Shown in pieces: positions 17,455 through 32,473 of a DNA stretch of 64,000 nt (the stretch's first letter is position 1; each line of letters begins with the position of its first letter). The notes beneath the pieces were generated by a model, which had not been told where the DNA came from, ran no database searches, and saw nothing but the letters and a program-made list of their open reading frames with translations. This DNA is from an uncultured Cycloclasticus sp. GTDB taxonomy: Bacteria; Pseudomonadota; Gammaproteobacteria; Methylococcales; Cycloclasticaceae. The translations under genes and the position numbers were made by a program. The stretch covers positions 62,001 to 126,000 of the forward strand of contig CAJXTU010000003.1 in NCBI GenBank assembly GCA_913060865.1, in the 5' to 3' direction.

Positions 17455-18051
17455 TTAAACTTCGCTACGACCACTAAACGCATGAGATAGCGTTCCGCTA
17501 TCAATATATTCCAGCTCACCGCCAAACGGTACGCCATGCGCTATTCGTGTTGCTTTAACGTTATTCTTCTTTGCCATCTCGCTGATATAGTGCGCAGTCG
17601 CCTCACCTTCAACGGTTGGATTAGTAGCTAAAATAATTTCTCCAATCATGCCTAATTTCAGCCTATCGACAAGCTTATCTAAGCCAATTTCAGACGGCCC
17701 TAAACCGTCTAATGGCGATAAGCGGCCATTCAGTACAAAGTACACGCCCTTAAAAGAAGTCGCACCCTCTATTGCCATCACATCAGCTGGGGTTTCTACT
17801 ATACATAATACGTGTTGCTCCCGGCGTTCATCAGAACACAGGCTACAGACTTCAGACGAAGTTAGTGTTTGACAGGTCGCACAATGCCCAATTTTATCGA
17901 CTGCTTCAGCGAGACTTTGTGCCAATTTGAACGCCCCTTGACGGTCACGTTCTAACAAATGAAATGCCATACGCTGGGCAGACTTTTGGCCGACACCTGG
18001 CAAACAGCGTAACGCTTGCATAAGATCATTAAGAACCGGTTCTGCTGACAT
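17455..18051 (-). CDS. recR: Recombination mediator RecR
   Basis: With RecF and RecO, loads RecA on gapped DNA. The 198 residues have an N-terminal helix-hairpin-helix (LRCLPGVGQKSAQRMAFHLL), a four-cysteine zinc finger (CATCQTLTSSEVCSLC at about residues 57-72) and a TOPRIM domain (CIVETPADVMAIE). The start is 2 nt from the ebfC stop; dnaX-ebfC-recR is a conserved operon. Confidence 0.97.
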   Translation of the reverse strand: MSAEPVLNDLMQALRCLPGVGQKSAQRMAFHLLERDRQGAFKLAQSLAEAVDKIGHCATCQTLTSSEVCSLCSDERREQHVLCIVETPADVMAIEGATSFKGVYFVLNGRLSPLDGLGPSEIGLDKLVDRLKLGMIGEIILATNPTVEGEATAHYISEMAKKNNVKATRIAHGVPFGGELEYIDSGTLSHAFSGRSEV

Positions 18052-18053
18052 GG

Positions 18054-18383
18054 CTAAAAAGGTAATTTAAAGCCCGGTGGCAATGGAATACCCGCCGTCA
18101 TACCTGCCATGCTTTCTTTGTTTTCATTTTCCACCTTACGAACAGCATCATTAATGGCAGATACAATCAGGTCTTCTAGCATTTCTTGGTCATTATCTGC
18201 GATTAAACTGGGGTCAATTGATAACCGTTTAGCTTCGTGCTTACCCGTCAATACGACCTTTACAAGACCCGCACCCGACTCACCGGTTACTTCAAGTTCT
18301 GCTAATTTTTGCTGCGCCTCTTGCATTTTTTCCTGCATTTTTTGCGCTTGCTGCATCAAATCACCTAATTGATTCTTCATCAT
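18054..18383 (-). CDS. ebfC: Nucleoid-associated protein YbaB/EbfC
   Basis: Small DNA-binding dimer. The 109 residues have an N-terminal coiled coil ([19 protein letters not shown]) followed by the conserved core [21 protein letters not shown] and a Gly/Met-rich C-terminus. It sits between dnaX and recR, 20 nt from dnaX. Confidence 0.96.
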
Positions 18384-18403: not shown

Positions 18404-20164
18404 TTAATCTATTGGTTTAATTGAGCCTTCAATAATCTTAGCGTCAAACAGCTCGATTATTTGTTTGACTACTGGGCTATCCCTAACTTCTTTTTCTGCT
18501 TCGCGTTGCCTATCGGCTACTTTTTCATTCGCAATACTGTTTGGCGTTTCAATATCTTTCGCGCCTTCTGTTAATCGAAGTTGCAACTTTCGACCATAAT
18601 GGACTGTTAATGCTTGCTCTAAATTCAACTCTGATTTTTTATTGAGTGATATATGTCCATCCATCAGCAATAACTCACACTCATGTTCACCCACTTTTAC
18701 CAAGGTTGCGTTATTAGCTAACTGAAGGGTCATGGGATCAAGGCCTAACGTGGGTACAAGCTCATGCCAAGGAAGGTCTGATTCAGGTATTACTGCGGGC
18801 TGCTCAATAGGGATATCTTTTGTTGGAATATTGACTGCTTCTGCCCGCGGTATATCTTTTGCCGGAATACTGACTGCTTCTGACTGCAGTATTTTTCCTG
18901 CCTCTATATTTTTAAGTGTTTTTTTTTCTGGGATGACCAGTTTCGGCGCTTTTTTAAATGACTCAGTACTCTTGTTGCTCTCAACCGCTGGTTGCACCGC
19001 TACGACTGAAGGCGAAGGCTCACTTATTTTTGCTGCAGTAGTCTGGGCTATTCCCCGCTGCTCAGTGGCCGGCTTATCACTAGCACCATCCAATTGAACG
19101 GGAGCAAACGCTAGCATACGTAACATTAACATTTCGAACCCAACTTTAGGCGTTGGTGCTAACGGCAGGTCTTTTTGCCCTATCAATGCGATTTGATAAT
19201 ACAGCTGAACATCTTCTTTAGTCAGCTCCTGCGCGAGCAAGCTTAAAGACTTATCCTCCGCCTCATTACCCACTATTTGACACACAGCGATTTGATGTAA
19301 GTAGTTTAATAACGACTGTAAAACTTCAGCATAATCAGGCGCAAACTCGTCAAGTTGCTGAATACTGTCTAATACCGCTGCACCTTGTCTCGTTAATAAC
19401 GCATTCAGTAGATCAAGTACTGGCTCTCGTGCCACACTGCCGAGCATATCAATCACATCGCTCTCAAGCAGGCCGCCATTACCATGCACAATAGCTTGAT
19501 CTAACAAACTAAGGCCATCACGCATACTGCCATCAGCCGCGCGTGCTAATAGTTCCGTTGCCTGATGCTGATATTCAATGCCTTCGCTATCTAAAATCAG
19601 CTTAAACTGCCCTTCAATCTGGTCTGGTAATAAACGTTTAAGGTTAAATTGCAAACAGCGTGACAAGACAGTCACTGGCATTTTCTGCGGATCGGTAGTC
19701 GCTAGCAAAAACTTCACATGAGCCGGTGGCTCTTCCAAGGTTTTTAACAGTGCGTTAAAACTGCTTTTGGAAAACATATGAACTTCATCAATCAAATAAA
19801 CTTTGTATTTACCTCGACTAGGTGAGTACTGAACATTTTCTAGTAAGTCTCGTGTGTCATCAACACCTGTTCGAGAGGCTGCATCCACTTCAATTAAATC
19901 CGGGTAGCAGCCTTGATCAACTTCTAAGCAGGTATCACACTTTCCACAGGGTTCAGCTTCCACTACATTAGGGCAATTCAGCGCCTTAGCCAGCACCCTC
20001 GCAATGGTCGTTTTACCAACACCTCGTGTCCCTGTGAACAAATAAGCATGATGCAGTCGATCATGTTCAAGCCCATTGATTAAGGCGCGCACAATATGTT
20101 CCTGCCCAACGACTTGAGCAAAATTTAACGGGCGCCATTTTCTTGCAAAGACTTTATAACTCAT
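18404..20164 (-). CDS. dnaX: DNA polymerase III subunits tau and gamma
   Basis: Clamp-loader ATPase of the replicase. The 586 residues carry the P-loop [15 protein letters not shown] (residues 45-59), a zinc module ([14 protein letters not shown]), DEVHMFS (Walker B), the SRC motif LSRCLQF, and a variable, Pro/Lys-rich linker with a tandem 13-residue repeat ([11 protein letters not shown] / [11 protein letters not shown]), then the tau C-terminal domain. A run of nine A (18919-18927) at codons 413-416 lies where E. coli makes gamma. Both other frames stop within five codons, so a short form of about 417 residues is predicted. Confidence 0.97.
18912..18927 (-). other. Predicted slippage site in dnaX (A9 run and -1 stop)
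   Basis: On the minus strand GAA AAA AAA ACA is a run of nine A. A shift to the -1 frame reads AAC ACT TAA and ends at 18912; a shift to +1 ends four codons later at TAG. The shortened product (residue 415 plus Asn-Thr) would end at the gamma/tau boundary. An AATACTG...CAGTATT hairpin (18866-18893) follows 25 nt later. No Shine-Dalgarno-like stimulator is seen upstream, so polymerase slippage (as known for Thermus dnaX) is as likely as ribosomal frameshifting. Confidence 0.65.
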
Positions 20165-20245: not shown

Positions 20246-20361
20246 GTGGTAACTCATGCCAGCCACACCCCGGCACACGATTCCATCGCTGCCGTTGCTC
20301 CCTTCCGGGCCTGGCGGGGTTCACGACTTCACGTTGCGAGGGGACCGACATGAGTCACCAT
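20246..20361 (-). ncRNA. ffs: 4.5S RNA of the signal recognition particle
   Basis: On the minus strand the hallmark domain IV is visible: CCAGGCCCGGAAGGGAGCA, with GGAA tetraloop and the asymmetric internal loop that binds Ffh. The ends pair over about 14 bp (TGGTGACTCATGTC with GGCATGAGTTACCA), closing a hairpin of about 115 nt. It lies 82 nt upstream of dnaX on the same strand, a frequent gammaproteobacterial position. Ends are set from the pairing and may be off by a few bases. Confidence 0.93.
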
Positions 20362-31564: not shown

Positions 31565-32473
31565 CTATACAAAAATTCTAACTGGGGCCAGTTGATGATC
31601 ACCGTCCCATTTACCTAAACCAAAAATCGCCCCATTCATATCATTCAATCGAATCAAGGGCTCACAAACTACATCTTCAACCTGAATTTTCCGGCCTAGA
31701 CACAAATAACTCTTATCTTCATCGCTGAAACTCATTGCTGGATAATCTTGTAACGCCATATCTAGACTATGCAACAAGCCATCTAATGCCGCAAAATCAC
31801 CTTGAACTAGCTCTAACTGCTCTAATGTAACGGCTTTAGCTAAAGCAAACGGGCCCGTTTTTATTCTTCTCAAAAAAGTAACATGAGCCCCACATCCCAG
31901 TGCATTCCCTAAATCTTCTGCTAATGTACGAATGTATGTTCCTTTTGTGCAGCAAGCTTCCAACGTTAAACTATCAGACGTTCTAGACAGTAATGTTAAG
32001 GATTTAATCTTGACACTTCGTGCAGGTCTATCAACGACCTGACCTTGTCTGGCCAACGCATATAAACGCTGACCCTTGTGCTTTAGTGCAGAATACATGG
32101 GTGGGATCTGCTGAATATCACCTGTGAACTTATCAAGAAGTTGATTCAACGCATCCAAATCTATCAGAGGATTTTTTTTTTCACAGACCAGTTCACCTTC
32201 AACATCGCCGGTGCTCGTGGTTTGACCCAAGCGCATGGTGAATTGATATGTTTTATCAGATGCTAATAAATATTGCGATACCTTCGTTGCATGACCTAAG
32301 CAAATAGGTAACACACCAGAAGCAAGAGGGTCTAAGCTACCCGTATGACCGACCTTCTTCGCGTCATATAACCGTTTAACTCGTTGAACTGCCTGATTAG
32401 ACGATATATTAAGTGGCTTATCTAAAATGAGAATACCGCTAACATCACGGCCTTTCTTTTTACGATTCGCCAC
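31565..32473 (-). CDS. truB: tRNA pseudouridine-55 synthase
   Basis: Forms pseudouridine 55 in the T-loop of nearly all tRNAs. The 302 residues show the catalytic Asp in [20 protein letters not shown] (about residues 42-61), the YQ motif ([10 protein letters not shown]), and a C-terminal PUA-like region. Located between rbfA (3 nt) and rpsO, as in E. coli. Confidence 0.97.

Follow-up and report, generated by a model that had tools for sequence, protein, structure and literature searches.

The dnaX gene is the textbook example of one gene that gives two replication proteins through a frameshift, and the ribosomal route of E. coli is the usual model for its relatives. The dnaX gene of a 2.43 Mb Cycloclasticus genome carries a run of nine A (A9) inside its reading frame. 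The locus raises the question of whether this run serves to make both tau and gamma and, if so, whether the ribosome or RNA polymerase slips on it. We analysed it in a stretch of 64,000 nucleotides (the window) and in related genomes. Among the papers searched, none named both Cycloclasticus and dnaX.

The dnaX locus and the anatomy of the A9 site

The identity of the gene is beyond doubt. Its product matched NCBIfam PRK07994 (4.4e-219, above the cutoff) and Pfam PF13177, PF22608, PF12169 and PF12170, and the AAA+ region, domain III and tau domain V expected of the gamma/tau family were all found with Pfam. The gene order dnaX-ybaB-recR is common to the Cycloclasticus window and E. coli. The features of the locus are as follows.

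18404..20164, minus strand: dnaX, DNA polymerase III gamma/tau, 586 codons and 586 aa (NCBIfam and Pfam)
DnaX residues 20-230: AAA+ and lid; residues 234-352: domain III
DnaX residues 465-582: tau domain V, alpha-binding
18919..18927, minus strand: A9, the candidate slippage run (GAA AAA AAA ACA, codons 413-416), within the linker that joins domain III to domain V
18912..18914, minus strand: -1-frame stop TAA, ending 7 nt past the run (-1 frame AAC ACT TAA)
18904..18906, minus strand: +1-frame stop TAG, ending 15 nt past the run (+1 frame CAC TTA AAA ATA TAG)
18054..18383, minus strand: ybaB, the next gene 3' of dnaX
17455..18051, minus strand: recR, 3' of dnaX-ybaB

A gene for the bacterial small SRP RNA (20254-20350, minus strand; from L001:3348-3444) lies directly 5' of dnaX on the same strand, an arrangement conserved across the genus. 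Within dnaX, a segment of the linker (18780-18900, minus strand) is imperfectly duplicated.

The first-pass annotation of this DNA had described nine A in codons 413-416 of a 586-codon dnaX, with the -1 frame closing after two codons and the +1 frame after four, and the site was found exactly so. It had also likened the position of the run to the tau/gamma boundary of E. coli at about codon 430, which agrees with an E. coli heptamer starting at codon 428 of a 643-residue DnaX. Two marks of a Thermus-type site were present: at least nine sense-strand A in the tau linker (in the window and in 15 of 16 genus members) and near stops in both frames other than that of tau (in the window; across the genus in 16/16 for the -1 frame and 14/16 for the +1 frame). 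Such a site would further be expected to yield mRNAs that differ in the length of the run, and tau and gamma at about 1:1.

Conservation of the run within the genus

We aligned 16 dnaX genes of the genus Cycloclasticus, two of them from single-contig genomes (G008 and G015). The encoded proteins were 65-86% identical to that of the window, and the linker was highly divergent. Fourteen of the 16 genes had A9, and of the two others one had A10 and the other A8; these two remained in the tau frame through compensating changes. Codons 413-417 formed the lowest window of synonymous differences in the gene, with 20 observed against 206.6 expected from gene averages, and codons 413, 414, 415 and 417 showed no synonymous difference at all among the 16 genes. 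In this they differ from the majority of conserved Glu, Lys and Leu columns elsewhere in dnaX, which do vary synonymously. The Glu and both Lys residues of the run were invariant in all 16 genomes, while Thr416 was replaced in some members by Ser (AGT) or Asn (AAC); the first base of the codon was still A, so a length of nine was preserved despite the change of residue.

The run is thus under selection at the nucleotide level. This is also what the first-pass annotation had expected of the run and its -1 stop among close relatives, and the breaking of the run by synonymous changes, which it had named as counter-evidence, was not seen in codons 413-417. Comparison of the 16 genes gives good support for reading the conserved A9 of Cycloclasticus dnaX as a recoding site. 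In the sole A8 member (L094), a new A9 lies 14 codons further downstream (codons 395 and 409), followed by a -1 stop that ends 5 nt past it, as if the site were undergoing turnover.

Selection on the stops in both shifted frames

The stop in the -1 frame was either TAA or TGA in every genus gene, and the third base of codon 417 was T in 16/16, whether the codon specified Leu, Pro, Phe or Thr. Leu417 was encoded by CTT in 11/11 genes (CTT makes up 12% of Leu codons). The +1 stop, 14-15 nt past the run in the genes that have it, was formed through ATA-G, GTA-G, CTG-A or CTA-A; the two members without a near +1 stop were L087 and L094. Ile420, whose codon supplies this stop, was ATA in 9/9 genes (ATA usage 28%). 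In simulations on one gene tree with simple codon models, in which P values are to be read as orders of magnitude, CTT at all Leu417 positions arose in 0 of 10,000 runs and P for ATA at Ile420 was about 0.006. When codons were simply resampled within each genome, the +1 stop was weakly supported, since a TTA or CTA codon at position 417 brings in a +1 stop of its own closer to the run; we judged the tree simulation of Ile420 the fairer test.

A -1 stop within 8 nt together with a +1 stop within 16 nt was found in 14 genes, compared with 1.35 expected from other linker positions. Both stops persist even though the amino acids there differ between genus members. On this comparative evidence, both alternative-frame stops are under selection.

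Search for E. coli-type stimulators

None of the elements that stimulate frameshifting in E. coli dnaX was found at the site. The E. coli heptamer A_AAA_AAG was absent; all 16 genes carried A_AAA_AAA, and Lys415 was never AAG. The 30 nt 5' of the run contained no Shine-Dalgarno (SD)-like tetramer in 15 of 16 genes (one GGTG occurred in L096), and the window was among the 15, as the first-pass annotation had said. RNAalifold on the 16 sequences returned zero pairs for a conserved downstream hairpin. Rfam RF00382 had no match at E up to 10 in the 16 Cycloclasticus loci or the window, while the E. coli control scored 96.8 bits.

One hairpin lies downstream in the window.

18873..18890, minus strand: weak hairpin with a 5-bp stem, 28 nt past the run

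The distance had earlier been given as 25 nt, which our measurement corrects. The hairpin came from a terminator-like scan (opposite strand) whose count equalled that of shuffles, and it is probably irrelevant to the site. Four promoter-like hits were found in a search for an internal promoter over the run; none overlapped it and their count was equal to shuffles. The genome has one tRNA-Lys, with anticodon UUU.

Chance and control runs

To place the run in its genomic context we counted A9 matches on both strands of the 2.43 Mb genome. There were 35, whereas shuffles of the window gave 7.84 per 64 kb, or about 300 when extrapolated to the genome, so such runs appear strongly avoided. Statistics of coding runs were drawn from 30 loci of the genome. 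As controls we used A-runs of nine or more from three further genes of the same genome (A10 in truB, and runs in hemW and a MaoC-like gene), and each was kept in 0 of 16-17 relatives, being present in the window's own genome only. In the MaoC-like gene the Lys-Lys pair is retained in many relatives, but AAA and AAG alternate. The truB run (32172-32181, minus strand, codon 98 of 302), found within the genus only in the window's genome, may be a site of unprogrammed slippage.

Proposed mechanism and alternatives

We propose that programmed transcriptional slippage at the A9 of Cycloclasticus dnaX yields the two proteins tau and gamma, and we put the probability of this reading at about 0.77. RNA polymerase would slip on the run and produce mRNAs with 9 (+3n) A or with other numbers of A. 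The former would be translated through to full-length tau of 586 aa. In the others, whichever the shifted frame, translation would end at a stop within 5 codons, and the product would be gamma of 417-420 aa, which would retain the ATPase and domain III and be without the polymerase-binding C-terminal domain. The -1-frame stop would be reached by insertion of 1 nt in the mRNA (or by a -1 ribosomal shift), giving 417 aa ending in PEKKNT, and the +1-frame stop by loss of 1 nt or gain of 2 nt, giving 419 or 420 aa. From the sequence comparisons we infer that slippage happens, that RNA polymerase rather than the ribosome slips, and that gamma is made in useful amounts; the ratio of the two products is likewise inferred.

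Gamma could also be made by -1 ribosomal frameshifting on A_AAA_AAA, as in E. coli, but on another heptamer and unaided by stimulators. The in-frame heptamer, the -1 stop in all 16 genes and the single tRNA-Lys(UUU) fit this, and given that tRNA and heptamer some ribosomal slipping could also occur. Against it, the heptamer is not A_AAA_AAG, and the SD element, the hairpin and RF00382 are all absent. Moreover, seven A and the -1 stop would suffice for a -1 ribosomal shift, so the eighth and ninth A and the +1 stop, which are nevertheless retained, are not required by it. We regard ribosomal frameshifting as the source of gamma as unlikely. Retention of a run length of nine and of both stops favours slippage by RNA polymerase, of the Thermus type, over the -1 ribosomal shift; polymerase slippage requires both, as PMC1088944 describes for Thermus. 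The first-pass annotation had preferred the polymerase on the window alone, and its preference gains support from the +1 stop in 14/16 genes, the run of at least nine in 15/16 and the lack of conserved stimulators.

That the run is conserved merely since the protein requires Glu-Lys-Lys-Thr-Leu agrees with the invariant Glu, Lys and Lys of the 16 genomes but is already contradicted by the conservation of synonymous sites: codons 413-415 and 417 lack synonymous differences where most conserved Glu, Lys and Leu columns have them, the Lys pair of the MaoC-like gene is held with varying codons, and the stops persist in both frames as amino acids change. We consider it very improbable. Proteolysis of tau, known from Caulobacter (PMC5009743), could supply any gamma there is and make the A-run unrelated to it; it would leave unexplained why the run and both stops are conserved at the nucleotide level, and is just as improbable. 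Hardly credible is a contingency (phase-variation) tract at the DNA level, which the A8 and A10 versions might suggest, since those genes stay in the tau frame by compensating changes and the sole DNA-level frame break, an A11 in G003 (L013 4240-4276 / L097), looks like an assembly fault. This A11 was also tried as a two-ORF dnaX and set aside because it adjoins a contig end (22 nt away) and lies inside a short palindrome; it is probably an error of assembly.

A9 runs in other Gammaproteobacteria

We examined 163 distinct gammaproteobacterial dnaX genes from outside the genus, a sample skewed towards genes that resemble the query. A run of at least nine A (A9+) was found in 15, in every case inside codons 351-450 and nowhere else in the gene. 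On a DnaX tree the A9+ genes formed nine clades (Cycloclasticus and eight others) with nine parsimony state changes; the tree was a quick one and clade members are non-independent, which makes the count of origins approximate. The sister sequences from the same order were without A9+. Both stops lay within 30 nt in 13 of the 15 non-genus A9+ genes against 4.7 expected. One of these runs (L175) belongs to a gene with 71% G+C. Its stops lie at 7 and 24 nt, and a pair of stops within 30 nt would be expected at 4% of positions there. The dnaX open frame of L206 (G229) is given as 1035 aa, far longer than the others.

These distributions leave the balance about even on a wider proposal: that Thermus-style dnaX slippage arose repeatedly in Gammaproteobacteria (at least nine clades sampled), replacing or preceding the E. 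coli-type ribosomal element, that evolution can exchange either mechanism for the other within the class, and that joint conservation of both stops identifies truncating slippage sites from sequence. If slippage does operate at these sites, RNA polymerase provides the same products as the E. coli ribosomal route throughout one gammaproteobacterial genus and in several further lineages. Slippage that produces a shorter product has been described as difficult to predict by comparative sequence analysis (PMC1088944); synonymous conservation together with stops in both shifted frames would supply a comparative test for it.

Comparison with known systems

The kind of mechanism proposed here is already known from Thermus, and the Cycloclasticus site belongs to the class whose model, E. 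coli, typifies the other mechanism. In Thermus thermophilus, dnaX undergoes transcriptional slippage on an A9 (PMC1088944, PMC5009743). In both genes a single open frame encodes tau, the sense strand carries an A9, the two other frames close nearby, and gamma is a truncated product, here a predicted one. However, the Cycloclasticus gene is gammaproteobacterial, its slippage is deduced from sequence, and its run lies at about 71% of the ORF, compared with about seven-eighths in Thermus.

The E. coli element (RF00382) shares with the Cycloclasticus site the gene, the location past domain III and ahead of the C-terminal tau domains, the near -1 stop and the same (in Cycloclasticus predicted) products. 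In contrast, Cycloclasticus is without A_AAA_AAG, the SD sequence AGGGAG, the stem-loop and an Rfam match, and its +1 stop is additionally under selection. Two-ORF dnaX genes carry poly-A runs of 7-10 for which slippage has been proposed (PMC3711429), and resemble the present gene in both respects. There, however, gamma is in frame and tau is made by recoding, whereas in Cycloclasticus tau is the in-frame product.
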